From: Bolinopsis microptera
Taxonomy: Eukaryota; Ctenophora; Tentaculata; Lobata; Bolinopsidae
Length of the DNA: 64,000 nt
Assembly: GCF_026151205.1 (NCBI RefSeq)
Contig: NC_087081.1
Span: forward strand, 3,043,246 to 3,107,245
Direction: 5' to 3'
The notes below the pieces were generated by a model, which did not search any database, was not told where the DNA came from, and saw nothing but the letters and a program-made list of their open reading frames with translations. Shown one piece after another: positions 5,851 to 61,058 of the stretch (position 1 is the first letter of the stretch; the number at the start of each line of letters is the position of its first letter). A program made the position numbers and the translations under genes.

Positions 5851-6305
5851 AATCGATCTCTAAAACCTCTCAGAAGTGAGGAAGTGATAAAAAACCCCTA
5901 AATATGCTATATTGTTATGAGAAAACGAACTAATTGGACATTCCAATAGTATGTTTTATGTGTTTTTCCACTGCAGGGGCTAGTATGCTCACTACTAGTT
6001 GGAGTTGTCATGTACTCCCAGACCCGAGTGCTTTGGCCTCTTGACTTGAGATTGATTGTTTCTGCTCATTAATTTTATCCCTGTTACTTGTTATTATGTA
6101 TAAGTACAACACTAGGGTTATATTTTGTAGTCCGGTCTTTAAACATACCATAATATCACTAGTACACTGCACCTTAAATGTATAGTCAAGTACATTTGTA
6201 TCGTAACACATGCTTGGCTGGGGGATCATGTTTTGTGTCCGTTCGGTACCCTGTATTTTCAAAACGGACAAAAAGTAGGGCGGACAAAAACAGACAAAAC
6301 ATTTA

Positions 6306-7715
6306 GATGTCCTCCTCCTCCTAAGTCTTCCTCCTCCTGAGTCCTTCTCCTCCTCAGTCCTCTTCAGTCCTCTTCCTGACTCCTCGTCCTCGTCCTCGTC
6401 CTTCTCCTCAATCCTCCTCACCCTCCTCCTCAATCCCCTTCTCCTCCTCAGTCCTACTCCCAGTCCTCCTCCTTCTCCTTCTCCTTCTCCTCCTCCTCAT
6501 CCTCTGCATTTCTCCTCCTGATCCTCCTTCTCCTCCCCATCAGTTCTCCTTAGTCCTCCTCATAGTCGTCCTCCTCCTCCTGAGTCCTTCTCATCCTCCT
6601 CCACCTCCTGAGTCCACCTCCTGAGTCCTCCTCCTCAGTCCTCATCCTCCTCCTCAGTCATCATCCTCTTCCTCCTGAGTCCTCCCCAGTCCTCCTCCTC
6701 TTTCTCCTCCTCATCCTCCTCCTCCTTCTCCTCCTTATCAGTCCTCATCCTCTGTCCTCCTCATAATCGTCCTCGTCCTCATCCTCGTCCTTAGTCCTCC
6801 TCCTCCTTCTCCTCAGTCCTCCTCCTCCTCCGCAGTCCTTCTCCTCCTCGTCAGTCCTCCTCCTCGCCAGTCCTCCTTCTCCTTCTTCTCCTCCTACTCC
6901 TAAGTCCTCCTCCTCCTCCTCAGTCCTCCTCCTCCCTCTCATCCTTTTCCTCCTTCTCCTCCTTCTCCTCCTACTCCTAAGTCATCCTCCTGCTCCTCAG
7001 TCCTCCCCCAGTCCTCCTCCTCATCAGTCCTCCCCCAGTCCTCCTTCTCCTCCTCCTCATCCTCAGTCCTCCTCCTCATCATCCTCCTTAGTCCTCCTCC
7101 TCCTCAGTCCTCCCTAAGTCCTCCTCTTCCTCAGTCCTCCCTAGTCCTCCTTCTCCTCCTCCTCATCCTCAGTCCTCCTCCTCAGTCCTCCTCGTCCTTA
7201 GTCCTCCCCCAGTCCTCCTTCTCCTCATCCTCAGTCCTCCTCCTCAGTCCTCGTCCTTCTCCTTTTTAACAGTCCTCCTCCTCAGTCTTCCTCCTCGTCC
7301 TCGCTCTCGTCCTCCTCCTTCTCGTCTTCCTCCACACCAATCCTGCTCCTCTTCCTCAGTCCTCCCTCTCCTCTTCAGTCCTCCTCCTCCTCAGGCCTCC
7401 TCGGTCCTCCTCTTTCTCCTCAGTCTTCCTCCTTTTCCTCCTCCTCCTCATTTCTCTTCCTCATCCTCCTCCTCCTTCTTCTCTTCCTTCTCCTCCTAAT
7501 CAGTCCTCCTCCTAATCAGTCCTCCTCCTAATCAGTCCTCCTCCTCAGTCGTCCTCCTCCTCGTCCTTAGTCCTCGTCCTCATCGTCCTTAGTCCTCGTC
7601 CTCATCCTCCTAGTCCTCGTCCTCATCCTCCTAGTGCTCGTCCTGGTCCTCCTCAGTCTTCCTCCTCTGTCCTCCTCAGTCCTCCTTCTCCTCAGTCCTC
7701 CTCCTCCTCCTCATC
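6306..7715 (+). repeat. 1.4 kb CCT-rich polypyrimidine tract
   Basis: About 1,400 bases made almost entirely of TCC/CTC triplets with interspersed CAGTCC, with very few purines on the plus strand. Two minus-strand open frames (6008-6433 and 6745-6942) are Arg/Glu-rich low-complexity translations of the repeat and should not be read as genes. Such strand-asymmetric tracts can form triplex (H-DNA) structures; whether this one does is inference. Confidence 0.95.
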
Positions 7716-8294
7716 AGTTTACACAATTTATTGTTACTAAAATGTTTTTAAACGCATTTGAGTCTGTAACATATTGACATGTTACTGTTACTGACTCAAA
7801 ATGTGCCCGAGAATTTTTTTGTTTAACAGAGTTTTACTCTCCAGTACTATGGAAAAGTTGTTACATGATAAATAAAGATTTTGATAAATAAAGTGATTTT
7901 CATCCCTTTTAATGTTATTGAAAATTGTGTAGACTATTCTTTGTATCTAACTGAGGATTGGAAGTTTGAGAAAGGACCATAGTCATTAACCGTGCTACCC
8001 ATTTCTGCAGATAGCCTGTTACAAATTGTGGAGACAATTTAAATCAAAAGTTACTAAAGCGTTCGCTATTTGTTACGATTGTTATTACCAACCGTACCTC
8101 TTTCAATTGTGGACCGGGGTGGATGTTTCTGTCAAACAAGAGTTGGTACGACATTGTGTTGTTTTTCGGACGAAACGATTCTTGTTTGGAACAAGATACC
8201 GTTTTGGGGTTCTGGGACCACCACCAATCGATTTCTTGTCATATTTAAGTACAGAAATAGCTACCTATATCGCCTAGAAACCTCAGAGGGAAGA

Positions 8295-31217: not shown

Positions 31218-34200
31218 ATGAAGAGATACCTACCGACAGTGCTGATACTGGTAGAGCTACTGGTTGTAGCGTGCAGTGTTGGGAAGGATGCTGCTGAAAG
31301 GGAGGCGGTGGAGCGGGAGGCTGTTGCCGTGGTAACGGGCGGTTTGAACACAGTTGTCGTCGTCAAAGAGTCTCGTAAGTGTGTTTGATTAAGTTTATTA
31401 TGAATAAATAATTCAGATTTTGATTCTGTGTTTATGGATAAGGTAAGGAAATGTTGCCTCTAAACATTATTATACTTCATGCGTATTTGAATATAAAGCC
31501 GCAATGTTTTGACCACTTCTGGCTTATGAATTTTATATCGACATTAATTTTAGCTCCAACATCAACAGAGATTCCGTTAACTACAGTTATAGGTAGGGTG
31601 AGCAAGAGAACACTAATATTTCATCTTTACATTACCTCTCCAACAATAAGCAGAACCAGTGCAATATCTTTCTTAACCTTGCTTGTTTATTTTGAAGAGC
31701 CAGAATGAGCCAAAGAGAATTCTTGAACTAGCAGTTTGTTGTAACCACTAGTAACCAGCAGTAATCACTAGTAACCAGCAGTAACCACTAGTAACCAGTA
31801 GTAAACAGCAGTAACCAGCAGTAACCACTAGTAACCAGCAGAACTAGCAATTTGTTGTAACCACTAGTAACCACTAATAACCACTAGTAACCAGCAGTAA
31901 CCTCTAGTAACCAGCAGTTGCACTAGCAGTTTGTTGTGCATTCACTGTGACTTTTTGCATTGCCTCGCGACTCGCTTCACGGATGATTATCATTTAAACT
32001 TTCGTTCTACTTCTTGATTCTTCCACTTGCACGAACAAGCTTCTTCCAAGATAAGTATACTCATGAAAATGTAACACCTCTTGATCGCCCGAACACTATC
32101 AGCAAGACGTTTACTAAACTATACACTCTTGTACTAAAATCTCTTAACTAATAATCTTTGACTGTAATTAACTGATTATAAATAAATTATTAATAATTTC
32201 ATGACACTTTTTCCGTCAGCGTTGGAATCGCTAATCTTTCTGGAGCAACCAGAAGATAAGGATGTGAATGAGAACACTGCTGTACGACTAGCATGCAGGG
32301 TCCAGGAGGTAATTAATAAATAATTACTACATAATTACTACATAATTACTACATTATTACTACATTTAATTACTACATAATTACTGCTTAACTTTGATCA
32401 TTACACAATAATTGTGTAAGTATTTAATCTAATAATAACTATGAAGTATAAATTAAATATGTAGTTACATTAATTAACCTACAGGTGCAGGGAGCCAGCT
32501 ATGTGTATGAGTGGTTCGTTTCCCCGGACCTCAGAAACATCCAGATGGTAAGACTTCACGTGATACATATATAATATATATTATGGAATTTTCCTATTTC
32601 TATAACTTATACTTACATACATGTTACATGGCGAGATCTCCATCCAAAAGGATTAGTCTGCGTCATCTGCGTCATTACTTTGTATTATACAACTTCGGCG
32701 GGTAATATTTCTCCATCCTTTTCGATCTGCAGCCAATCTTCTCATACAATCAATCGTGAGTCCATTACGATCCAATCTCTGCTCAGCATATTCAATAAAT
32801 ACATCATTTAAGCTCTTCCTAGGCCTGCCTCTTGATCGTTTCCCATGCTTGGGTTTCCATTCAAGTAGATAGTTAGGTAACCGATCTTCAGGCATTCTAC
32901 TGACATGTCCAAACCAACGTAGCCGTTTTGTTGCTATTATGTCAGTAAGAGCAGTTATTGAAGCCCTTCTTAAAACATCTTCATTTCTTACTCGATGGAA
33001 CCACCTCACTCTCAGGATTCTGCGTAAGCAGTACTGATGGAAAGACTCTAATCTTCTTGTCTGCACTTGAGTCGTGTTCCATATCTCACTTCCATAGGTC
33101 AGAATGGTAAGAACAGCTGCGATGTAGATTCGCACTTTGTTGTTAATGCTTATGTTCTTATTCTTCCAAATGTTATTGAGTTGGTTAAAAGCTCCGGTTG
33201 CTTTTCCAATCCTGACACTTATTTCTTTATCGATCTTGCCATCCGATGTAATTTTGGCACCCAAATAAGTGAATTGAGTGACCTGCTTTGCACAGTCATC
33301 AAATCAGTCAGTTTCCCCTGATTTTCTGTAACCGCTACATTTAAGGCGCTAACCGTTAAACCCGCGACTTCATCTCAGCATTCAGATCTAATATTTTGGC
33401 AGTAACCAGGTGTAACCAATAGTAACCACTAGTAACCATCAGTAACCACTAGTAACAACTAGTAACCACTAGTAACCAGCAGTAAGCACTAGTAACCAGC
33501 AGAAACCAGTTGTAACCACTAGTAACCATCAGTAACCAGTTGTATCCACTAGTAACCAGCAGTAACCACTAGTAACCAGCAGTAACCACTAGTAACCACT
33601 AGTAACCACTAGTAACAACTAGTAACCAGTTGTATCCACTAGTAACCAGCAGTAACCACTAGTAACCAGCAGTAACCACTAGTAACCACTAGTTTCTCAG
33701 CACGAAGATAACAAGATATCAGGAGCTGACGGTCCGGAGCTATTTATCTCCTCAGTACAGTCCCACCACGCTGGACAATACATCTGTACTGTTACTGTTC
33801 AGGGGACGAACTTTACTGTTATCAGCAATACTGGCCAACTCAAGGTAAAGTAATAAATGTTACAACTCAAGGTAAAGTAATAAATGTTACAACTCAAGGT
33901 AAAATAATAAATGTTACAACTCAAGGTAAAGTAATAAATGTTACAACTCAAGGTAAAGTAATAAATGTTACAACTCAAGGTAAAGTAATAAATGTTACAA
34001 CTCAAGGTAAAGTAATAAATGTTACAACTCAAGGTAAAGTGCAGGTTTTAGTACAATTTGTTTTTATACTGGCCAACTCAAGGTAAAGTAATAAATGTTA
34101 CAACTCAAGGTAAAGTAATAAATGTTACAACTCAAGGTAAAGTAATAAATGTTACAACTCAAGGTAAAGTAATAAATGTTACAACTCAAGGTAAAGTAAT

Positions 34201-37200: not shown

Positions 37201-40200
37201 TGTTAACAGTGATGACGGTACATCTTACACCTGCTCTGTGACTGTCGGGTGAGTGACATCTCGTTATTATGTCATGTTGTCACGTGACTATGTCATCCTG
37301 TCACGTGACTGTGTCATCTTGTCACGTGACCTTGGCCTTAAAAAATAAAACATACGATAACCCACTCTAATCACGTGACACGTAGCTCCTTATGAGCACA
37401 TACCTGAGTTTCATTCACAGAGATGGTTCATACAAATACAATTTTAATTAAAGTTGTTTTAATTAAATTTGTTCAGAATTGCTTAGACGGCACGGTAATA
37501 ATTTAAACGGTCTGATTCATTGATAAGTATAACGAAGAAATGAGGAAACAAAACATCATGCAGTATAAAAGGAGCAAATATTTATGAAAATGGAAAAATT
37601 ATGAAAAACGAGCATCCTATTTTTATATATAATATATATAAAAATAGGATGCTCGTTTTTATTATATTATGTATCCTACAGGGATATTTAAAACATATAT
37701 TTAAAACTGCCTCCTCTCAGCGCGTGAAAATGTGGTCACGTGACACGTCCAGGGACACGTGACAGTAAACCTTGTAAACCTCGTGACAGTAAACCTTGTA
37801 AACCTCGTGACAGTAAACCTTGTAAACCTCGTGACAGTAAACCTTGTAAACCTCGTGACAGTAAACCTTGTAAACCTCGTGACAGTAAACCTTGTAAACC
37901 TCGTGACAGTAAACCTTGTAAACCTCGTGACAGTAAACCTTGTAAACCTCGTGACAGTAAACCTTGTAAACCTCGTGACAGTAAACCTTGTAAACCTCGT
38001 GACAGTAAACCTTGTAAACCTCGTGACAGTAAACCTTGTAAACCTCGTGACAGTAAACCTTGTAAACCTCGTGACAGTAAACCTTGTAAACCTCGTGACA
38101 GTAAACCTTGTAAACCTCGTGACAGTAAACCTTGTAAACCTCGTGACAGTAAACCTTGTAAACCTCGTGACAGTAAACCTTGTAAACCTCGTGACAGTAA
38201 ACCTTGTAAACCTCGTGACAGTAAACCTTGTAAACCTCGTGACAGTAAACCTCGTAAACCTCGTGACAGTATGTCCTTGACAAACTATTGATTCTGCATA
38301 TTCTAATAATTTCGTATAATTTGTCCGGTTCCCAATTTGTCAATATAACGTCTCCTGATTCTTGGAGCGAGGTGTTCACACTTCACACCTGTGCCGAGAC
38401 TGGTCACTAACTGGTCACTTACTGGTCACTTACTGGTCACTTACTGGCCACTAACCGGCAAATAACTGGTCACTTACCGGTCACTAACTGGCCACTGACT
38501 GGTCACTAACTGGTCACTAACTCCAGAACCTTCCACAGGGGTGCTGGCAAGAAAACTCAGATTGTTAGCATGGATATAATTCCCCCGGTCTCAGCTCAGA
38601 TTACATTTGTAGAGCAGCCCAAGTCTCAGATAATCTTTACAAACAGATATCCTACATTCTCTCTCAAGTGTTCTATCAACCTGGCCGAGTAAGTACCGGC
38701 CTTTTCTTCAGTTCATTTCAGTTTCCGTGCAAAGTATTACGATGAAATAAAAGACAATATTGAACTATAAAAACTAAAAACCAACAAACCTCAGGTTTAT
38801 TGGTGTAGAAGGAAGTATGATGCCAGTACTTTACTGGTTAAAGAACGGTAACCAGTTGGGCTTCTCTAGTCGGAGAAAGTCCACAACCAGACAAGACTCA
38901 GAGACCAATGTGTTGGAGAGCTCGATAGAGTTTGTTTCTCCGAATGAGAGTGATTTAGGTTCGTGTTTATGTTGTGGTTCCAGTTAGCCCTATTTTTTAA
39001 TGAAGTATGCTAACAACTGGCCGAGGAGATGCAAATCGCTTTTACTTGTAACTCAAACTTACATCACCTCCCGCTACCTTATCTTACGTTAAGTTGTTTG
39101 ATTTATCAGCTAAATATAACGCCTGTGGTAGGAATATATCAGTGTATTGCACGAGGCATAACACAACTGAGACAAGTAACAGCTTACGTAAACGTGAGGA
39201 GCACTGAGGGGGACTACAATATGGAGGTGGTGGAACCTAAATATGACTTTATCAGCGTTCCTATGACTGTAAGTATGATTTCATCAGTGTTCTGTGTTTA
39301 CTCAGGGGGAGCAGGGACAAAAGGAAATCGCGGTATGTGCGGGATCACGATTTTTCCCATTCTTTGCGACAAATTTTATATGTCGAGTCTGTTTGGCTTG
39401 TCGCAGTATCGCGATTTTTGGCCAAAATAATCGCGATTTTCGTTTTGTCCCTGTGGGGGAGTAGTACGTGGCTAGAAATTATATTATCATGTTTTTGTTT
39501 GTTTTGGTATATTTATGTCTTGTGCTATGCAAAAAAACCACACAATAAATTATCAAACGACTCCCGTAAGTTATGTGCCGGCATAGTTGGCGGATTTTAA
39601 AGGTGTTTGAAAATATCAAGTTTTTGCACAATTACAGTCATGTCATACAAGCATAAAATTGTGGCTGTATATGACTGATAGGAATTTACTTTACAACATC
39701 TTAACCACTGTATTTTTGCTAATCTTGGCTCAAGCTCTGCCGGATTTATTTGCTATGTTGTGAAAGCAAATTTAAAAAATATGGTAAAGTGACGGTCCCT
39801 TATTTACAGGTGTCGGCAGCCGAAGAACACTGTAGGTCCTGGATGACAAACGGTCATTTAGTGAGTATTATGAGCAGAAAAGAGGCGGATACTGTCACCC
39901 GACTTCTCAAACAAGAGAGTGAGTAAAACTCTTATCATCTGCTTAGTGTTATCTTGCACGTGGAGTAAAACTCTTATCATCTGCTTAGTGTTATCTTGCA
40001 CGTGGAGTAAAACTCTTATCATCTGCTTAGTGTTATCTTGCACGTGGAGTAAAACTCTTATCATCTGCTTAGTGTTATCTTGCACGTGGAGTAAAACTCT
40101 TATCATCTGCTTAGTGTTATCTTGCACGTGGAGTAAAACTCTTATCATCTGCTTAGTGTTATCTTGCACGTGGGCGTGAGCACTTTACGGACCTAGAGTT

Positions 40201-41599: not shown

Positions 41600-43715
41600 T
41601 CTGTATTATAGGTTCTGCTTTTCTATAGCAGGGAACTGTTTTGTATCATCTTTTTAATCAGAAACGAAATGATAGTAAATTGTGGGTCCCGCACTGTTGG
41701 GGACGATTGTAAGATATTTATTCAGAGTTTTGATGTCGAAGAAATAAATTGTGATGATGTGATGCCATTTGGTGATTGAGCTCTCATTTCCGAAAATAAG
41801 ACATATCAAACTGCCAGACTTGCCAACTGGAATCATAGTTTTCAGCGTGTATGACAGTTTAAAACTGGATCGGACACGATGCAACAATTGGCTCTGAAAA
41901 CCCGTTTACTGTACTTCGAACCTTGAAACTGAAGGAGGACCGAGATAATGTTCACACAAGCCATGCCCTTATTTGGGTATCACGTGCCATGTAGAAGTTT
42001 TAATATTTACAGATTTCCCTCTAAATTCATATTCATGAGATTTAAGCAGCGAGCTTTTGTAAACAGACCTTTTGAATTTCGAACTTGCGTAGATTCCGTA
42101 AAGCCATGCCCTTATTTGGGTATCACGTGTCATGTTCCCTAAAGTTACATTATCTTGATCATAATACAGAGTTCTCAGTTCAAAAAGATTGGAGAGCATT
42201 ACATACTGCATACTGCATAGTCCAGTATTGATAAATTGGCGAAATTTCCAATAAAAATCATCTGTTTTTTATATAATGATAAGAATGAATAAGAATGATC
42301 TCAAATACTTTTGACATTCAGATTGTAGGTTCGATGATTAATTAATTTTAATGTTACCTCATTTTTATCGAATTCCTAAAAAATATTTATTTGAGTTGTA
42401 TCCACCAATTAGTATATATGTACAAGTTTAATTCACCTGGGCCAATTTGATGTTAACATGTAACGACATTAGATTTAATTTCTATTTCGTTATATTTTTA
42501 ACGTAGACCTAATTTACTGTAAAACGGTTACATTTGGTCACAACATCTCATTTTACATTATTCATTTAGCTGACATTTTATTTAAATTTGTTGACATTTA
42601 TTCTATTACAGTAGAATGTCTTTTCGAGTGATTAATAGATGTGGATACTGGCGGGGAGGTGATAATTGTTTGTTTACATTAATAGTGAGCACATGTTAAG
42701 CAGGCTGAGGAGGTGATAATTGCTAGTTTACATCTAAGTTTACATCAGTAATTACAATTTTAATTACAAAGAAGTTAACGAGTGAACGATCGTTTCTTCA
42801 GAATTTTCAAGGAATTCATAAATTTTTATTTTTAAAGAGCACACTCTGTGAATGTAATCAGGGATCCTGGACATTAAATTAAAGTGGAATATTAAACTAT
42901 TTTTATTGATTAATATATTGATCTGTAAATAATGATAACTTATTCGTACGAAGTGGATTTTGTTTACAAACGCAAACTTGGCTTATTTTTATTGTACCAC
43001 ATAAAGCTATGAACTAAACCGTCAGTTGCCAACCAACCTGATTCTGATTGCTGCCAGACGAGAGGGCCCCCTAGCTGTGATCTAACTGCATTCACAATGT
43101 CCAAACGCTTTAGCTACTGCAAAAAATATTCCGTCTTGTTAACGCTAGGTAATGTTGTAGTATAATAGGTAAGGGTCTGTAGTCAGTAGATATTAGAGCC
43201 TTAAAGTTAATAAGGACGAATAGGGCAGTGGGCACATCACGTCTTGTGGAGGTTCACCAGTGCAAGTAGGAAAGAGAGTTTAGTCGGGAAGAGTTGATAC
43301 ACGTTGTATAAATTCGATACTGTGATAAGAGTTGATACACGTTATATACCACTTTTCACAGAAAAGAAGGTGAAAAGTGAATTGTGGCTTAAAGTTAAAA
43401 TGTATGTTTATACTCACCGGATTACACTGGCTTACTTTCAACTTGTAGTTGTATGAATGACCCTTATCACTTATAAATATAATTGACCGTGACGGATGTT
43501 ACTCGTCTAAGAGTAAGACTAAATTTCTTCGAAGTAGCGCGCCGCTTTCTTCTCGAAATACAAAATATAAACCGAAATAATTAATTTCCATCGGTATTTT
43601 GTCGAACTAAACATCCTGCGGCTGCACCCTTTGAACATCCTCGAATTGCTTGAATCTCAAAAATTGGCGAGCTGGAGGCCAGTCTTACAGGTTCCAATAC
43701 TAATAGGTAAGGACG
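41600..43715. other. Gene-free DNA downstream of the Ig/lectin gene
   Basis: No supported gene. A 36-bp sequence (AAGCCATGCCCTTATTTGGG then TATCACGTG) occurs twice, near 41960 and 42102. A small inverted repeat (CACTTTTCAC ... GTGAAAAGTG) lies near 43352-43379. A GAGTTGATACACGTT motif occurs twice near 43282 and 43328. Confidence 0.5.
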
Positions 43716-43721
43716 TATCAG

Positions 43722-43795
43722 AGCTTACTGGGCCGCGCTCAGCCTGTCATTCCGCCAAATCTTTATTATGTTAATGAACATAATAGCCTTCTCAA
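43722..43795 (+). pseudogene. GPCR exon relic (TM3-like), copy of 53.54 kb
   Basis: About 70 bp closely matches 53539-53604 and translates in one frame as AYWAALSLSFRQIFIMLMNI and then IAFSN. This has the look of transmembrane helix 3 of a rhodopsin-type GPCR, but the E/DRY motif does not follow and no other helices are found nearby. It is probably a stray duplicated exon fragment. The helix assignment rests on pattern only. Confidence 0.4.
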
Positions 43796-44044
43796 ACATT
43801 TTATTACATTATCACTTCTCAAACATTTTATTACATTATGTTGTTATCTAGTCTTGCTGCTAAATAGATAAGCCGACAGTGCAGCAGCTCATCGTGACGT
43901 GGCTTAAACACTAATACTACGCACACTGACTACAACACTACAGATAACAGAGACCCCTAGGCTCGGTGGCCCCAATTTAATTGGGCCCCTCCTTCCACAT
44001 AAGTCCACCGTAGCCCTCCTTGAAGCGTAAGTTTACCTTTCTAC

Positions 44045-45637
44045 ATGACTGAATCGACGGAACGCCCGTTTTGTTTCTCAACTGCAACCTGTTTGGAATT
44101 GGTCGATAAACTCATTGTATCTCAACTCGACCGTGAATTGCTGCTCTTTGGAGCGACTGAAGATGACCTTCAGTTATGCAAGCAATCCAAGCAGAAAATG
44201 CTACGTGCACACATTCTTGACAGTCATAAGTGTACCTCTACATTAACCGAAACTACTGACAAACTTATCTCTCTAACTCAAATTTTTTCGAGATCGTCCA
44301 CTGATGCGATGACCGGCCTCCAGAACACCGTTAGTGAAGCACAGTCCCTTGTCCAGTCTCTACGTGACCATTCTGCTCACCCTCCTACTCAACCTACAAC
44401 CACCCTCCCCGAAATACCTGCACCACCAACACCGGTCCAGACTGTGGAACAGCCCTTCTCCAAGCTCGAAACTGGTGACCAGCTGCAGAGGTTTGACTTT
44501 AAGAGATTGGACTCTGAATTAACCTATGATAAAGTTTTCTCGAATAGAAAGGTTGCATATTTTGGCGATGCTCCTTACAAGTATTTAGGAGGGTACCACA
44601 GGGCAAAGCAATTAGACCCTGAGACGTACCTTGCTGAAATACTTGTAGCAGTTGATGATGTGTGCAAGACCAACAACATCAACTATAAGGATTTCAATAG
44701 CTGCATGATCACCAAATATGAATCACACGTCTCGTGTATACCTCCTCATTCCGATGATGAATCGTGTATAGTACCCGACAGCACTATACTTACCATTTCC
44801 CTGGGGGGTAAAAGGGATTTGGTTTTTCGTAGACGTCCTCCAGGCGAGTATCGCGATGAAACCGTGACAGTTCAACACGGCGACTGTTACACTATGACGC
44901 GAAAATCGCAGGACCTTTTTGACCATGCTGTTCCTCCGCAAACTCAGGCGGATTTTGAAGGTCCTCGAATCAGCTTAACCTTTAGACAGTTGGCCTCGGC
45001 ACATTCCAGAAAATCTAGCAGCCATCAGCTGCGACCTCTACCCCATCATAAAGTGAACCAGACCAAACGAGTGCTGATACTGTCTGACAGCAAAAACTGT
45101 AATTTTGACTGTTCTCAATTTCGTTCACCTGTCATAGCGTTCCGGGAAAACTTATTTTTCCTCCGCGACTTAAAGGAACACCGGGAATCGATTCAACAAG
45201 CCGACATTGTACTCATAAGTGCTGGCATAAACGATATCCAGAAAAACAGAGCGAGTGCCGTCCTGCTGCATAATCACATCAGAAGTTTCATAGAACAGTT
45301 CCCGCGCACTATGTTCTTATTCGATGCAGTCAGTCCACTATCGATACATGCTGACCGATTCAACACCCACAACGACATTATCCAGTACCTTAATGAACTC
45401 ATGTTCAAGTGCTCCCTTCACCATGACAACTTCAGACTCTTCGACAACTCAAGTTTTAGTCTCGCTCACCTCGCTCGTGACGGTCTACATCTTAATTATA
45501 TTGGACAGAGTGTATTATCAGATTGCTGGGTAAACTGTGTGCTCATTGGACTGGGGTTCAGGCGTGGACCCCTACCTCTACGTGAGCATTTTAAACGTAT
45601 GATATCTTATCCAATCCCTGGCCACTTTGGCACCTGA
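44045..45637 (+). CDS. LINE ORF1: AlkB-type 2OG-Fe(II) oxygenase fused to SGNH esterase
   Basis: 530 residues. Residues 1-110 are an unrecognised helical region and 111-135 a Pro/Thr-rich linker. Residues about 160-315 match the AlkB oxygenase fold: N218 and Y225 near FNSCMITKY, the iron-binding H235-S-D237 in PPHSDDE, a TISLGGKRDLVFRRR strand, a HGDCYTM turn, the distal iron ligand H294 in FDHAVPP, and the 2-oxoglutarate-binding R308 with R314 in RISLTFR. Residues about 341-500 match an SGNH hydrolase: nucleophile S349 in ILSDSK, AGIND (N396) and D479/H482 in DGLHL. All catalytic positions are present and no stop interrupts the frame. AlkB enzymes demethylate alkylated DNA or RNA, and SGNH domains are known in CR1-like ORF1 proteins. 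A role in protecting or modifying the element's RNA is inference. Confidence 0.85.
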   Translation: MTESTERPFCFSTATCLELVDKLIVSQLDRELLLFGATEDDLQLCKQSKQKMLRAHILDSHKCTSTLTETTDKLISLTQIFSRSSTDAMTGLQNTVSEAQSLVQSLRDHSAHPPTQPTTTLPEIPAPPTPVQTVEQPFSKLETGDQLQRFDFKRLDSELTYDKVFSNRKVAYFGDAPYKYLGGYHRAKQLDPETYLAEILVAVDDVCKTNNINYKDFNSCMITKYESHVSCIPPHSDDESCIVPDSTILTISLGGKRDLVFRRRPPGEYRDETVTVQHGDCYTMTRKSQDLFDHAVPPQTQADFEGPRISLTFRQLASAHSRKSSSHQLRPLPHHKVNQTKRVLILSDSKNCNFDCSQFRSPVIAFRENLFFLRDLKEHRESIQQADIVLISAGINDIQKNRASAVLLHNHIRSFIEQFPRTMFLFDAVSPLSIHADRFNTHNDIIQYLNELMFKCSLHHDNFRLFDNSSFSLAHLARDGLHLNYIGQSVLSDCWVNCVLIGLGFRRGPLPLREHFKRMISYPIPGHFGT

Positions 45638-46470
45638 GCACGACGTATTTTATATCTTAATGTCAAATTATCATGACAAAAATATCGAATCCTGAACAAC
45701 TTTCCAGACTCGCGCTGAGTCGCAAACAATTTCACTAATCAAACAAACGTAACTTATTTGAACAAACTCTTACCATATTTTTTAAATTTTCCGTCATTTC
45801 AAATCAAAATTAGAAACTTAAATCAATAAATTCAAACTCAAGCACAAAGCACATAATACAACCAACTACTTAAAAGAACTTTTCCCTTATCCAGATTCCC
45901 TACCTTCTCATCTTATCTATCACACCTTATCAGCAAAACGCGAAATAAACCCTGCTTGATAATAGTCCACGTCCCTACATCATAACAATCATTTCATATT
46001 ATCTAATTCCTAACCTCATGCCGTACTCAGACAACGACGACGCAATATTTACACGATATCTACACAGATATTTTACACAGTACTCATTATACATACATCA
46101 CACATTACTGTACATTTGACTCTGTACATTTGACTGATCTGTACATTTGACTCTGTACATTTGACTCTGAACATTCGACACATACATTACTGTACATATG
46201 GAAATTAGGCTCATGCACGGTGAGCTGCTGCCATCAAGTAATAGAAGAGAAGTTAAAGGTCAATCATAAAGGTAAAGGTGAAGTTTACTTAATTACTGTA
46301 GATAAGTCACGGTACTTTCTACACACAGGACTGAAAGTCTTCGTTAGAAGTATCTGACTAGGTCACGTTATTATTATCATATTTTGTATTAATAGTAAGT
46401 CTATACTCTCTTAAATATATCATAATATAACTATAATACTAACGAATATAATACATTATCTCATAGTTCT
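45638..46470. other. Spacer between LINE ORF1 and ORF2
   Basis: 833 bases of AT-rich DNA without open frames of note. It contains about five imperfect copies of TGTACATTTGACTC near 46109-46175. A segment near 45706-45724 (CCAGACTCGCGCTGAGT) resembles in reverse complement a stretch near 52631-52645 (TTAGCGCGAGTCTGAAAGG). Confidence 0.6.
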
Positions 46471-49400
46471 ATGAACGAATCTCAGCGTTGCAACAAATGT
46501 AATACACGTATTCCTAAAGCACGTTCGTTCCTAATTTGCAGTCACTGCGACAAAATAAAACATATGAAATGCATGAAGTTATCTAAGTCTGAGGCAAAAA
46601 TAATTGTAGATTCTGGCTCTGCCTGGATATGTTATGACTGTATTTCCAGCGCCTTACCAGTAAATGCATGCCCCTCGGCAAAGCCACCGAGACAAGGGCC
46701 CGTCATAGGTCCTAAATTTAAAGTTCAATGCACATGCTGTAATGGCTGGATTTACTCCCCGGCCAACCTGAAAACCTGCCACTGGTGCGAATCTAAAGTA
46801 TATACCAAATGTCACTCCGACTCTTTAGGATGCAGAAATTGCTGTGAAAATATGATCCCGGGATACTATGTACATTGCTATCAGCTATACTCATTACATA
46901 CACATACTCACACCGGCGTAATCCACAATCCCTACGATCGCAATCAGTTGATTAACGAAATAGGAAATACAATTGACCAAGATCAGGAACTCGAATATTG
47001 GAATGAGATTTCTGATATTTTAGTTAGCTGCAATTACATGGAGCCGACAAATGTAAGTTCGTCAGGACCATGTGATCTTAAGATATTTACCTTAAATATA
47101 CGGGGACTTCTTAAAAACGTAGACAAATTAAGAGAAGATATATTCACGTACTCGAAGTATGATGTCCTTTGTTTTAACGAGACTAATCTCTTGCAGGATA
47201 AGCTTCCTAATGGTATTAATGACCTAGTGATTGAGGGATTTTATGAACCACTGTTACGAGATCCAATACGTAGTTCTGGTCGTGGTGGGGGTTTAGCAAT
47301 TTATATCAATACGCGCGTATGCGAGTCTGAAAATATTGAAAAATTCTTTCCCCAAAACTTTGATGTGACAGACAAGAGTGGTGAATTCATGTTGGTAAAA
47401 CTCCATAACTGCAAAGGCTTTAACAAAACAAAGATAATCGTCAATTATATATATCGGTCACCAGCATCAAAAAAATCCTGATAATTTTAACAAACTCATT
47501 GACTCCCTATTACACGGCATAGAAAGGCACTCGAGAAAACATACTATATTAGTCGGTGATTTCAATGTAGATCTTACACATTATGATACTGGCAAACATT
47601 GTCAAAATTTGATTGAAACTATGACTAAATACGGTTTCTTTCAGCTAGTCTCACGTCCCACACGTATCACTGATCACAGTGCCACTCTTATAGATCATGT
47701 TTACAGCAATAACGTACAACACACACACAGCTGCAATGTTCTTACTGTTGACCTGTCTGATCATCTAGCCACTCTTGTTACTATCTCACTTGGGCAATAC
47801 AGCCACATTGCAGGGAGTAGAAACGAACGACACAGAGTCGACCATGGAATGAATATTGAAAAACGTATGTTTAACGAGTCGAACAACCTTAAATTTATAG
47901 AATTAATTGGATCCGAAATGTGGGAGGAAGTCACACGTGAAAATTGTGCTGATGAACAATATAACAAATTTATTGAAATATACGGTCAGCATTATGATGA
48001 GGCATACCCAGTGAAAACCAATCATGTGCGCCGCAAATTTGAAAGGCAGGACCCCAAACCTTTTATGCTACCCTGGCTTGAAATTGCATGTGCTCGTAAA
48101 AACAAATTATTCCATGCCAAAATAGTGGACCCAACGGAGGAAAACTACAAGGCTTACAAAAAGCATAAGGCATTCTGCGACAAGCACGTCAATAAGGCAA
48201 AAGACAAATACTACAAAACACAATTTGATAAGTATAAAGATTGTTCAAAGAAACAATGGCAGCTGATCAACACTCTATTTGGCAGAAAATCTAAATCTCA
48301 TAACAAAATTAAACTCCAAAACGCCGACGGAAATATCATAAATAGTGACAGTGATGTAGCTGAGCACTTTAACTCTTACTTCTCCAACATTGCCACAAAA
48401 ATCAAAGATGCGATCAGCGCGCGTACTGTATTCGATCCAGGGGGTTTTAAACATTACCTTAGCAGCCCAGTTTCGCAGTCTATATTCGTAAGACCAACTA
48501 CCGAAAGTGAAGTTGAACAAATTATTAGCAAGCTTAAGAATAAATCCACTCAAGACACTAAAATTGAACCCCTAAAAATTGTAAAAGACTGCCCCTCCTT
48601 CTGTAAAGTCTTGTCCATAATCATTAACACATCATTTAGTCAAGGTATCTTCCCATCATCTCTCAAAATAGCTAAAGTTATACCAATTCACAAAGGAGGC
48701 AGCAAATCCGACGCCACTAACTATCGACCCATATCTTTGCTGTGCACCTTTTCCAAATTGTATGAAAAACTTATGCATAATAGAGTAATGGATTTCCTTG
48801 ACAAGAAAGGGTCGCTCTTTGAAGGGCAATATGGCTTCCGGCCAGGCCGATCCTGTGAGCATGTTCTTTTAGATGCTCAACACACGATTCTGAATTCCCT
48901 TGCCAAAAAGGAAGTTGCTCTATTACTCCTAGTCGACTTTAGTAAAGCTTTTGACGTTTTGTCTCATGATGTATTGATTGACAAACTCCAGCACTATGGA
49001 ATCCGTGGGCAAGCTTTGCAATGGTTTAAATCCTACCTGAGCACACGTCAGCAATATGTATGTTTGAATGGTATTAAATCAGCTCTTAAACCTATTACAT
49101 ACGGAGTTCCACAGGGCAGTATTATGGGACCTTTGTTATTCCTAATCTACATCAATGATATGCCAAATATCAACAGTATGATAAAGTTTATACTCTACGC
49201 TGATGATGCGAACATCATAATAAAAGGAAAAAATGCAAACGATGTTATACAAAAATTCAACCAATTCTCCCACGAGTTTGTACGCTGGGTTGACTGTAAT
49301 GGACTTGCACTTAATCTAAAAAAGACCTGCTATATGCTTTTCGGTGTTAGAAATACTGATAATACTCCAAATATTCATATTGCAGACACACAATTAGAAC

Positions 49401-50134
49401 GTAAAAGGGAAGCACGGTTCCTTGGCGTTATAATGGATCATAAACTAACATGGTCTAAGCATATAGCAGCTGTTAGATCAAAAATGATGCGGTATGTAGG
49501 AATTATGTATAAAATAAAACGTCACCTATCGATTCAAATAAGGCTACAGATATATCAAAGTTTTGTTCAATCGCATTTAAACTTCTGTTCAATTGTATGG
49601 GGGTTTGCAGCAAAAAATCACATTGAATCACTCTTCTCACGACAAAAACAGGGTATCAGGGCAGTAATGCCAGGTCACATTAATTACTTTTACAAAGACG
49701 GTCGACTGCCAGAACACACAAAACAATTTTTCAATAACAATGGTATACTCACGGTGCACAGTGTTATTGTAAAAAACACACTAATTCTCATGCACCGAAT
49801 CAAACATTTCCGCAGCTCAGTCCCTCAACAAATCTGTATGACTATCCCAGAAAATTCACCCACTGCAAACTCAGATCACGTGAATGCAGCATCCTGGTTA
49901 GCCGAGTACAACACCACACATTTCAGATCTTCGATGTTCTTCAAAGGACCTTTACTCTCAATTTATGCTGTAAATGCAAATGTAAGCACCCTACCCACAC
50001 TTTTTTCCATAAACCTTTTTAAATCGGCTACAAAAAGGATGCTCTTGAACCTGCAGAGTGAAAATGACGATGACACGTGGCCCAGTTTCTTATTACATAA
50101 TATTCCAGGTCTAAGAAGGTCACAACGTGTCTGA
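46471..50134 (+). pseudogene. LINE ORF2: PHD finger, AP endonuclease, reverse transcriptase (one frameshift)
   Basis: The N-terminal frame 46471-47481 (336 codons) has a C4HC3 PHD-type finger (C7, C10, C23, C26, H31, C34, C54, C57), then a second cysteine cluster (87-125). The endonuclease follows, with N209 in LNIRG, E237 in FNETN and YRSP near 328-331. A 7-A run (47469-47475) has one extra base and leads to TGA at 47479. Removing one A joins it to the other frame, which continues with VGDFNVDL and the SDH motif and is open to 50134. The reverse transcriptase shows RPISLL, FRPGRS, LVDFSKAFD, GVPQGS, the catalytic YADD (49196-49207) and FLGV. This is a CR1/Jockey-group ORF2, about 1,220 codons if whole. 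The single-base lesion suggests either a very recent copy or a consensus error. Confidence 0.9.
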
Positions 50135-50387
50135 AAGTTACTGGACACAACGGTCATTATATCAGTTTAGTGAATTAGTTAATTAGTTAATTAGTAAATC
50201 AGTTATTAGTCATATGGTTATTATTAAGTACTATCACAGTGCTGGCAAGCACGACCGTTGCATTTATTGTGGGTATACTATGTTCCCCATTTACTATTAT
50301 ACCCCCTTTACTATTATACCCCCTTTACTATTATACCCCTTTTACTATTATACCCCCTTTGGTACACGTTACAAGCCTCTTTTGTGC

Positions 50388-50446
50388 ACGCGAAGCGTGC
50401 ACTCCGGCCGGAGGCGGCGGCCGAAGGCCGCCGCCTCCGGCAGGAG
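50388..50446 (+). repeat. Twin GC-rich hairpins with GAA loops
   Basis: Hairpin 1 is GCACGCGAAGCGTGC (6-bp stem, GAA loop). Hairpin 2 has 15-bp perfect arms (CCGGAGGCGGCGGCC and its complement) around GAA. The region is almost pure GC in an AT-rich setting. The same pair occurs in reverse at about 60870-60933 in module B. Confidence 0.95.
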
Positions 50447-51844
50447 TTTTCCAGGCATTAAGACTCATCGGAAGTCGTTCAGCAGATTTATTTTTAGTTC
50501 AAAACATTCTAATTTGATGTCAAAGATGACAGGAATAAAAAATAGTTATGTTCAGATTTTTAAGAAATTTGCATAAAATACTCGCCAGCACTGTTATACG
50601 AAATTCGGTAAAAAACCCAAAATCGCCATATTCAGGTGCCCTAAAAACCATGTTAAAATTGAGTTAGAGATCTGAAATTTTTCAGAGCGTCTAGACGTTG
50701 ACCAAATTGACTGCAAAAAAAGTTTCAGGTTTCAGGAGCATCGGGAAATGGGTTTTCTAGAACCCCTGTTTTACGACAGATTGTCGGGACATATACATAC
50801 AGATATACAGATATATATATTCAGGGATAGACGCTTTGCCAGTCAATTGTAGCCTGTATTTAAGTGTCCATAGATTCAAAAGTATAAAAGATACAGCCAT
50901 TTCCGACCACAGGTCTTGCAAATAATTGTTTACACTTTAGTTTACATTGTATACAAAATTTATTTGACGTCATAAACACCCCTTGATGACGTCATCAAGT
51001 TAACCGTTTTTAAAACTTGATTTTTGACAAAGTAATAACTTTTAAAATTAATTTTAACCCATTAAGGAGTAATTTTATTCAAAATCTGAGGAAATTTTCA
51101 TCTTAGATAATTGTTCAAGCATTCTGAAAATCTACCGGAAAGTTTTTCTAGCTTGCTCCTTCATAAAGATATTTGTCATTGAAGTTTGTGCTTTTTTGAA
51201 GAATTATTTTATAAAAACGTCAATTTTGCGATTTAGTATTCTTTGGTGTTGGGCCATGCCTTGGGTTGTGGAGCTCAGTTCTGCTTCCTATAGGTATAAA
51301 TTGTGCATTAGGCTAGTTTTAAAGTTGAAAATCGAAAAGTTGCACACGTGGGGACACGCCCAAATTGATAGAAAATTGCTAAAATCACTGAAAATTGCTG
51401 TTTTCGTCATTTTCTGTCAACTTTAGAGTGCCGTTGTGATTACAGTTCTTCTTGAAATACTTTGAAACTTTGCATGCTTATCAAGCTATATATAAAACAA
51501 TTACATACAAAAATTTACGGCGATTCAATATTGGATGCGCATGCAACGTCCGCTCAAAGTTTGCACGTGCGAAAGGTGAGAATTTTGCTCATTCGTGATT
51601 TCCAACAAATTCTGCTTTGCCACGACAGTTTAATGTCATTATATATGAATTTAATGTCAACTTGAATGAGTATTAAGTGGTATATTCAGTCAGTGATGGA
51701 CCGATATGCTTACCTAAACACAAGGAAATGTTTTTAAAGGAAAAATTTCGAAATCGTTGAAACTTCCTCCTTATTATAATGAAGATATCAGTTTATATTT
51801 CGACTTTATAAAGTACCCTGACATTATAATCAAAAAGAGATGAT

Positions 51845-53492: not shown

Positions 53493-54312
53493 GCCTACTG
53501 TTACTACAATTTTGAGATGAAGTTCGAGCACGCTGTGGACTTACTGGGCCGCGCTCAGCCTGTCATTCCGCCGAATCTCTATGTTTATGAACATAATAGC
53601 CTGAGGTCCCCAGGTATGCTGTGGACCTACAGGGCATATGGTGGGAGTCCCTCCCATTTTATTATTAACCTTCGTAACCCTCATGGTATCAGTTCTCAAG
53701 TTGCATTTCTCTGCTAAAAAGTCTGTAAGTCAGAGTGTCAAGGGTGATAGAAGTCCGAGAGCCAAGGTGATTCAGAAGTGGAAAGACCGAGCCAGCATAA
53801 CAATAGTGATGTTCACTGTTCAGCACACTGTTTCTGGTGTGTAACCTCCCCTTTTTGTGAACATGATGCACAACATGACCAGCAGGTGCTTCGAGGTGAA
53901 GTACCCAGGGGTTTACTTTGGTACTCGCTTCATGTTCTGGTACTCCTGGCACATCGCCAAGATGGAGAGTGTTGTGGTAAACGCGGCTCTCAATCCAGTA
54001 TTCTACTACTGCAGGATGAGACGGTTCCGGTTGTGGTGCAACCTTGTTATTACCTCAACCTGCAGATCCTTTAGACTAAACGACTTTCACGATAGCATTA
54101 GACCGGGATTTTCAGAGATGCAGGCTAGTAGTGATGCAGCTTATAGGCTGAGGATGGTGCGTTCTGCGAGGATCGCGAACGGGAGATTGGAAAATGGGCA
54201 ATGTCAAACAATGTCACAGAGTGTTGCCGACTCAAGTGGCACTGGGTGTAGTGGGCTCGTAGAGGAATTGGCTTCGTCTTCTGCTATAATTGATTGTGAG
54301 ACTAATTTATAA
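53493..54312 (+). pseudogene. Rhodopsin-type GPCR remnant
   Basis: In one frame, 53539-53601 gives a TM3-like helix (TYWAALSLSFRRISMFMNII) ending in TGA at 53602-53604. After a gap, still in frame, 53638 onward gives a TM5-like helix (VGVPPILLLTFVTLMVSV), a basic third loop (SVKGDRSPRAKVIQKWKD), the start of TM6 (ITIVMFTVQHTV) broken by TAA at 53842-53844, then TM7 with the diagnostic NPVFYYCRM (NPxxY) and a basic C-terminal tail to 54312. TM1, TM2 and TM4 are absent. A neighbouring frame across 53830-53855 reads better through TM6, so paired frameshifts are likely. This is a decayed class A receptor, ligand unknown. A copy of its TM3 region lies at 43.7 kb. Confidence 0.65.
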
Positions 54313-59095: not shown

Positions 59096-61058
59096 ATTTT
59101 ACCAAAACCCATAATCATGGGTAGAGTGGAGCGCTGCCAGTGTCTCTCTTTCCCAAACAAAAGGCAATGATATCAATTTGAATGACCGTTATCAAATGCA
59201 AAATGATACCGAGAATGAAATCGGTCGCTCGCTTTTCCCACTCATTCATGGCTTACGAATTGTAATAAGTTTCGATTTATAACATGTAATCTATTTCAAT
59301 TGTAAATGAATGGGAAAAGCGAGCGACCGATTTCATTCTCGGTATCATTTTGCATTTGATAACGGTCATTCAAATTGATATCATTGCCTTTTGTTTGGGA
59401 AAGAGAGACACTGGCAGCGCTCCACTCTACCCATGATTATGGGTTTTGGTAAAATATCATCTCTTTTTTTATTATAATGTCAGGGTACTTTACAAAGCCG
59501 AAATGTAAACTCATAACTTCATTAATATTAATAAGGAGGTTATTTCAACGATTTCGAAATTTTTCCTTTGAAAACATTTCCTTGTGTTTAGGTAAGCATA
59601 TCGGTCGATCACTGACTGAATATGCCACTTTATACTCATTGAAGTTGGCATTAAATTCATATATAATGACATTGAACTGTCGTGGCAAAGCAGAATTTGT
59701 TCAAAATCACGAATGAGCAAAATTTTAACCTTTCGCACGTGCAAACCTTGAGCGGAAGTTGCGTGCGCATCCAATATTGAATCACCGTAAATTTTTGCAT
59801 GATGGTGTTTTATATATAGTTTGATAAGCATGCAAAGTTTCAAAGTATTTTAAGAAGAACTGTAATCACAACGGTACTCCAAAGTTGACGGAAATTGGTG
59901 AAAACAGCAATTTTCAGTGATTTTAGCAATTTTCTATCAATTTGGGCGTGTCCCCACGTGTGCAACTTTTCGATTTTCAACTTTAAAACTAGCCTATGAC
60001 ACAATTTAGAGCTTTAGGAAGCAAAATTGAGCTCCACAACCCAAGGGATGGTGCAACACCAGAGAATACTAGAACGTAAAATTAGCGTTTTTATAAAATT
60101 ATTCTTTAAAAAAGCACTAACTTCAATAGCGAATATCTTTATGAAGGAGCAAGCTAGAAAAACTTTCCGGTAGATTTTCAGAATGCTTAAACAATTATCT
60201 AACTTCAATATGCCCTCAAATTTTGAATAAAATTACTCCTTAATGGCGTAAAATCGATTTGAAAAATGATTACTTTGTGAAAAATCAAGTTTTAAAAATG
60301 GTTAACTTGATGACGTCATCAAGTGGTGATGATGACGTTGAATTACTTTTTAACATAATGTTAACTAAAGTCTAAACAATTATCTTCAAGACCTGTGGTC
60401 CGAAATGGCTGTATCTTTTATACTTTAGAATCTACGGACACTTAAATACAGGCTATAATTCACTGGCAAAGCGTCTATCCCTGAATATATATATGTATAT
60501 AAGTATATATATATGTATGTATATATCACGACAATCTGTCGTAAAACAGGGGTTCTAGAAAACCAATTTCCCGATGCTCCTGAAACTTGAAACTTTTTTT
60601 ACAGTCGATTAGGTCAACGTCTAGACGCCCTGCAAAGTTTCAGATCTCTAACTCAATTTTAACATGGTTTTTAAGGCACCTGAATATGGCGATTTCGGGT
60701 TTTTTACCGAATTTCGTATAACAGTGCTGGCGAGTATTTTATGCAAATTTTTAAAAATCTCAACATAACTATTTCTTATTTCTGACATCTTTGACATCAA
60801 ATTAGAATATTTTGAACTAAAAATAAATCTGCTGAACGACTTCCGATGAGTCTTAATGCCTGAAAAACTCCTGCCGGAGGCGTCGGCCTTCGGCCGCCGC
60901 CTCCGGCCGGAGTGCACGCTTCGCGTGCACGAAAGAGGCTTCCGACGTGTACCAAAGGGGGTGTAAAGGGGGTATAATAGTAAAGGGGATAGAATAGTAA
61001 AGGGGGTACATAGTATACCCCCAATAAAGACACCGCTCGTGCTTGCCAGCACTGTGAT
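59096..61058 (-). mobile_element. 2.0 kb repeat module B (inverted partner of 50.2-52.35 kb)
   Basis: Reverse-complement copy of module A. The foldback unit (59096-59455, inverted arms of about 150 bp with a short spacer) comes first, then about 1.4 kb of AT-rich DNA, the GC-rich hairpins (about 60870-60933), the pyrimidine-tract units and an edge at ACTGTGAT (61051-61058). By eye the copies are about 90 percent alike. One arm of hairpin 2 has a single mismatch here. The open frame 60648-61097 mirrors the one in module A and is not considered a gene. Confidence 0.8.

Follow-up and report, generated by a model that had tools for sequence, protein, structure and literature searches.

Does a retrotransposon carry its own demethylase, and if so, for what purpose? 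The question is raised by a long interspersed nuclear element (LINE) of the ctenophore Bolinopsis microptera, which lies in a stretch of 64,000 nucleotides (the window; contig NC_087081.1 of assembly GCF_026151205.1, forward-strand positions 3,043,246 to 3,107,245, with coordinates below counted from its first letter). The first open reading frame of the element (ORF1; 44045 to 45637, plus strand, 530 amino acids) encodes a helical N-terminus, a probable coiled coil, an AlkB-type Fe(II)/2-oxoglutarate dioxygenase domain, a basic linker and an SGNH hydrolase domain. We lean toward the view that this is an APE-endonuclease LINE whose ORF1 protein is a two-enzyme ribonucleoprotein component, joining the probable coiled coil to an ALKBH2/3-like demethylase and an SGNH esterase and serving template demethylation. 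Many distant relatives retain both active sites, which suggests, at the level of sequence, that certain retrotransposons encode an enzyme for the repair of RNA or DNA.

The uninterrupted frame of 530 codons claimed in a preliminary description of this DNA is real. Translation runs without a stop from 44045 to 45637, and the stop-free stretch of the region measures 537 codons, against a maximum of 242 in 200 dinucleotide shuffles of 44000 to 46000; outside the LINE, the longest ORF of the window is 220 amino acids. The preliminary description had made its AlkB domain depend on a match in profile or structure searches, and both kinds of search gave one. The domain spans residues 133 to 318 (44441 to 44998, plus strand), PF13532 (2OG-FeII_Oxy_2, AlkB type) matches residues 174 to 314 at 3.1e-19 (70.4 bits versus a cut-off of 31.2), and the predicted structure has the AlkB fold. 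The AlkB signature HxD...H plus RxxxxxR is complete, with the iron ligands H235 and D237 followed by D238 and E239 (44747 to 44755), the third iron ligand H294 (44924 to 44926), and R308 and R314, five residues apart, on the 2-oxoglutarate and substrate side (44966 to 44986).

The second enzyme, an SGNH hydrolase domain at residues 338 to 505 (45056 to 45559, plus strand), is less conspicuous to Pfam, whose PF13472 (GDSL/SGNH) matches residues 384 to 488 at 2.3e-4 and 22.2 bits, under the curated cut-off of 32.9. The assignment, also made in the preliminary description, is firm because the family profile matches a platelet-activating-factor-type hydrolase (2hsj, 1.2e-8) and a LINE ORF1 esterase (4c1b, 9e-5), and because the predicted structure has the SGNH fold. 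The catalytic residues follow in the family order: the nucleophile S349 in a DS motif (45089 to 45091), the oxyanion residue N396 in a GIND motif (45230 to 45232), and the pair D479-x2-H482 (45479 to 45490). All nine catalytic residues of the two domains lie where they had been placed. Ahead of both enzymes, residues 13 to 44 (44081 to 44176, plus strand) form AlphaFold2 helices with a block pLDDT (predicted local distance difference test) of 82 to 91 and match no Pfam domain, and residues 49 to 109 (44189 to 44371, plus strand) form one continuous predicted helix (block pLDDT 49 to 84). This helix is a probable coiled coil; its heptad support is weak, the best of seven registers being 56% hydrophobic at positions a and d. 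An NCBIfam scan of ORF1 gave no matches at 0.01.

How widely the two active sites are kept was followed in relatives of ORF1. A search of 5.8 billion proteins gave 55, the closest 92% identical; a relative in Mnemiopsis leidyi (hypothetical protein ACHWQZ_G008922) is 54% identical. When a profile built from distant members was used for a further search, 34 proteins were listed, including P0056, which was already known, and P0089, an isochorismatase-AlkB-GST protein of another kind. The conservation alignment comprised 88 proteins (P0001 to P0088, fragments included), with P0089 excluded; alignment A1 held 45 of the first 56 proteins. Seven residues (H235, D237, H294, S349, N396, D479 and H482) are substituted in none of the 88, with gaps in 2, 2, 2, 2, 3, 8 and 8, so that the first four are present in 86 proteins, N396 in 85, and D479 and H482 in 80 each. 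R314 is present in 87 (one gap) and R308 in 86, being substituted solely in the fragments P0087 and P0088. In alignment A3 (50 of the 88 proteins, down to 19% identity with the window's ORF1), only 20 of 530 positions are invariant, and seven of the nine catalytic residues are among them (P = 1e-9); the other two are present in all 47 ungapped rows. The catalytic positions exceed the conservation of their own domains as well (P = 2e-8), in a set gathered by a search that prefers shared words and is biased toward conservation. The claim of intact catalytic residues holds not for the window alone but for both active sites across the 88 proteins.

This retention bears on whether the AlkB fold might be an RNA-binding or packaging module, standing in for the RRM domains found elsewhere in ORF1 proteins, with catalysis secondary. 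An ORF1 protein is expected to bind RNA, yet the Pfam scan shows neither an RRM nor a CCHC domain in ORF1, and no binding to oligo-A RNA was seen for the SGNH esterase of the zebrafish LINE ZfL2-1 (PMC3905857); both points favour such a module. Pure binding, however, has no need of iron and 2-oxoglutarate ligands, which are unsubstituted in the 88 proteins except for R308 in two fragments, and we regard a mainly structural role as improbable.

The two enzymes also appear to have travelled together. Among 75 two-domain proteins (13 with fewer than 130 residues of either domain were left out), AlkB and SGNH distances correlate with a Spearman coefficient of 0.85, and within the first set only (48 proteins) with one of 0.71; in each case none of 999 permutations reached as high. 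The second group of relatives (27 proteins) forms a single branch in both the AlkB and the SGNH tree, and so does the first (46 proteins) once two long-branched proteins that belong to neither branch, P0054 and P0055, are set apart. Judged from these sequences, the fusion of AlkB and SGNH was inherited as one. In a tree with a small sample of five outside sequences (ALKBH2, ALKBH3 and three phage AlkBs; L004 was left out), all LINE-type AlkB domains lie on one side with a support of 95/86, which is most simply read as a single capture. Longer members of the second relative set (648 to 774 amino acids) have a Cys/His-rich segment preceding AlkB, whose Cys and His hardly vary across an alignment of 25 members and which gave PHD-type Pfam matches in 5 of 10 proteins scanned, all under the cut-offs. 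Tentatively, and with rather more doubt than conviction, we extend our reading to an entire class of LINEs of long standing, divided into two main groups by the presence or absence of this PHD-like finger in ORF1; its ORF1 protein would demethylate N1-methyladenine (m1A) and N3-methylcytosine (m3C) on the RNA or complementary DNA (cDNA) template. Such elements would be, to our knowledge, the first retrotransposons to mend a template of their own. The structure of P0056, predicted on A2, had a mean pLDDT of 53.9, too weak for a structure search. Three proteins (P0023, P0035 and P0051) were already named AlkB by their source annotation; P0051, an AlkB-SGNH fragment, is filed in a Planctomycetes metagenome bin, where it is most likely animal DNA.

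The LINE ORF2 reported downstream of ORF1 is likewise real. It begins after a spacer of 833 bp (45638 to 46470, plus strand) that has stops in each of the three frames and a short 14-bp tandem repeat. Its first part (46471 to 47481, plus strand) holds a PHD finger (46489 to 46641; PF00628, 2.6e-5) and an APE-type endonuclease (47089 to 47328 and on; PF03372, 5.5e-4, under the cut-off in the broken window copy), and its second part (47609 to 50134, plus strand), which is out of frame with the first, holds the reverse transcriptase (RVT_1, 48704 to 49432; PF00078, 9.9e-35). An unbroken relative, P0090 (1223 amino acids; its cluster has 14 members and its longest contig measures 7001 bp), is 96% identical over the searched reverse transcriptase region and carries both the endonuclease and the reverse transcriptase expected of a LINE. 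Its residues 2 to 336 are colinear with 46471 to 47481 and residues 336 to 1223 align from 47471 on, which places a single frame break in the window ORF2, between endonuclease and reverse transcriptase. ORF2 has 5366 relatives, and among the 120 listed, the three with a named organism are all from Mnemiopsis leidyi. An 8-bp tandem repeat, (TTAGTTAA)n (50167 to 50210, plus strand), starts 32 bases 3' of ORF2 and is the probable 3' tail of the element. The interpretation in the preliminary description stands to this extent: an AlkB-type dioxygenase and an SGNH hydrolase share one ORF1 ahead of a LINE ORF2. Here a PHD finger opens ORF2, while the ORF1-like proteins P0056 to P0088 have a PHD-like finger, by weak Pfam matches, ahead of AlkB; a finger of this type may move between ORF1 and ORF2.

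What the AlkB domain might do for the element is suggested by its kind. The HxD[D/N]E motif, with E239 kept in 85 of the 88 proteins, and the ranking of profile and structure matches point to an enzyme closer to ALKBH2/3, which would reverse m1A and m3C, than to one acting on N6-methyladenosine (m6A) or on a DNA epigenetic mark. Both m1A and m3C block reverse transcriptases, and the element copies its own RNA by reverse transcription, so a demethylase bound to the template would be advantageous. In the mechanism that we propose, the ORF1 protein would self-associate through its coiled coil and coat the element's RNA in cis, the AlkB domain would strip methyl groups from the Watson-Crick face (m1A and m3C) of that RNA or of the first cDNA strand, and more copies would reach full length with a demethylase carried along on the template; the SGNH domain could anchor the ribonucleoprotein to membrane lipids, as proposed for the ORF1 protein of ZfL2-1.

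Several observations weigh against this proposal. The LINE AlkB domains stand on their own side of the tree and do not group with ALKBH2 or ALKBH3 as orthologues would, and E239 is replaced in P0012 and P0088 (and gapped in one further protein). ALKBH3 reverses m1A and m3C in RNA and can also take m6A from tRNA, so the HxD[D/N]E motif is compatible with m6A as well (PMC5304225). Alternatively, the AlkB domain might erase a regulatory host mark, either m6A on the element's RNA or methylation of the DNA of its integrated copies, and serve escape from silencing and not repair; the motif and the ranking of matches speak for the ALKBH2/3 kind, and we consider an eraser unlikely, if the stronger contender for the domain's role beside template repair. 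The SGNH domain is nearer by family profile to 2hsj than to 4c1b, and 4c1b is absent among the 50 structural matches listed for the ORF1 model. The window's ORF2 is broken, no target-site duplication of at least 9 bp was found (words of 9 to 16 bp, 43600 to 44044 versus 50135 to 50300), and linkage of ORF1 to ORF2 was seen in the window alone, as neither viral_contigs nor genome_contigs, when scanned, yielded another locus of the family. With P0001 and A1, nothing was confirmed in viral_contigs, and the genome_contigs scans gave nothing. The A4 contig scan produced a single match, L005, 29% identical to the reverse transcriptase, which was not used as a second locus; L006, matched by A5, was rejected, the matched piece being an AbiTii domain by Pfam. 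The 64-kb window itself holds no second copy of the LINE that we could find, and no contig size recorded for the 88 ORF1 relatives recurs exactly among the 120 ORF2 relatives listed.

The last points also invite the thought that ORF1, as a gene of the host or of a virus, adjoins a LINE ORF2 by chance, the two forming no single element. Direct linkage limited to one window, a spacer of 833 bp and the want of a common contig size all fit such a neighbourhood. However, ORF1, ORF2 and tail follow one another on one strand within 6.2 kb, and a coil plus an SGNH domain is the architecture of a known class of LINE ORF1. The ORF1 relatives, moreover, fall into clusters, frequently with several members and with as many as 38. 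Their longest contig is 6.0 to 7.5 kb, about one element, in 27 of the 88, as against 11 of the 120 listed ORF2 relatives, while just 4 lie at 7.5 to 20 kb, 16 are longer and 41 shorter; this is expected for dispersed repeats of one-element size, and we read these contigs, as indirect evidence, as repeats that collapse in assembly. A single-copy host gene unlinked to any LINE, which the preliminary description had named as the outcome that would undo it, is disfavoured by the same indirect evidence, and a host gene or chance ORF was rejected in view of ORF2, residue conservation and the shuffles. We hold a chance neighbourhood to be very improbable and keep to a single element.

Further features lie elsewhere in the window. 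A 66-bp stretch just ahead of the LINE (43724 to 43789) recurs downstream at 53540 to 53602 (91% alike). Directly after the tail, a repeat at 50232 to 50598 resembles a miniature inverted-repeat transposable element, with terminal inverted repeats of 18 bp (89%) that enclose a tandem array of 17-bp units and a hairpin of 22 bp; a copy of about 93% lies on the opposite strand at 60615 to 61058, and the match extends to at least 50700, the unit perhaps being longer. Farther off, a 24-bp unit repeated 21 times (37758 to 38271), open in several frames, yields three ORFs that rank among the four longest when the LINE is set aside, and a TCC-rich tract of 1.4 kb (6310 to 7713) shows strong strand asymmetry, with a GC skew of -0.59 in 6001 to 8000. 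An ORF of 203 amino acids on the minus strand (32653 to 33264), with a weak DUF6451 match (1.7e-5, under the cut-off), is perhaps a remnant of another retrotransposon.

Set against known systems, what is new here is a known class of ORF1, coiled coil plus esterase, with an additional conserved enzyme, so that the esterase-type class gains a second one. Among the papers listed from the open-licence PMC literature, with Repbase entries and closed papers outside that scope, we found no report of AlkB in a LINE, and none is given in the AlkB passages of PMC9289625, PMC6015446, PMC9921365, PMC11294593, PMC8857917, PMC8141815 and PMC12786077. If the enzyme is active, retrotransposition would be under lasting constraint from base methylation of the template, be it damage or a defence of the host. 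The nearest relation in layout is the ORF1 protein of ZfL2-1, a LINE placed in the CR1 clade (PDB 4c1a and 4c1b), in which a coiled coil likewise precedes an SGNH esterase that has S, N and D-x2-H, and for whose esterase membrane targeting of the ribonucleoprotein is favoured (PMC3905857). Unlike that protein, which is described as coil and esterase with no further enzyme, the window's ORF1 has AlkB between the long helix and the SGNH domain. In the Jockey superfamily, with its ORF1 types I to V, there occur both PHD domains at the 5' end of ORF2 and ORF1s of the esterase type; across 448 such elements, the surveyed ORF1 domains are RRM, CCHC, PHD, Tnp22 and esterase, AlkB is not listed, and esterase ORF1s are confined to two vertebrate subgroups (PMC4120745). 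Beyond these 448 elements, cnidarians and sponges are reported to have LINE or Penelope esterases (PMC3905857), and GDSL ORFs are present in long terminal repeat (LTR) elements of bdelloids (PMC5408684).

The AlkB domain itself has parallels in other replicons. Plant flexiviruses and other RNA viruses resemble the LINE as RNA-based replicons with their own AlkB and its HxD, H and RxxxxxR residues (PMC544882), and the matches of the ORF1 model include proteins from Grapevine virus T and GLRaV-3, among others. For the plant viruses an ancient integration is argued against (PMC544882), and their AlkB sits in an RNA-virus protein, unlike the LINE domain, which is fused to SGNH in an ORF1 and belongs to an element that replicates via cDNA. 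Human ALKBH2 and ALKBH3 are cellular repair enzymes, whereas the LINE AlkB domains form a separate branch. The closest precedent for an AlkB enzyme encoded by a retrotransposon is a Ty3/Gypsy element of orchids, a plant LTR element in which AlkB is an additional ORF, was recently acquired in one lineage, was compared with ALKBH9B and has m6A activity in vitro (PMC9289625). The enzyme described here differs in being ALKBH2/3-like, fused to an esterase and built into the ORF1 protein of a LINE family that is deep and has kept both active sites in 88 proteins.
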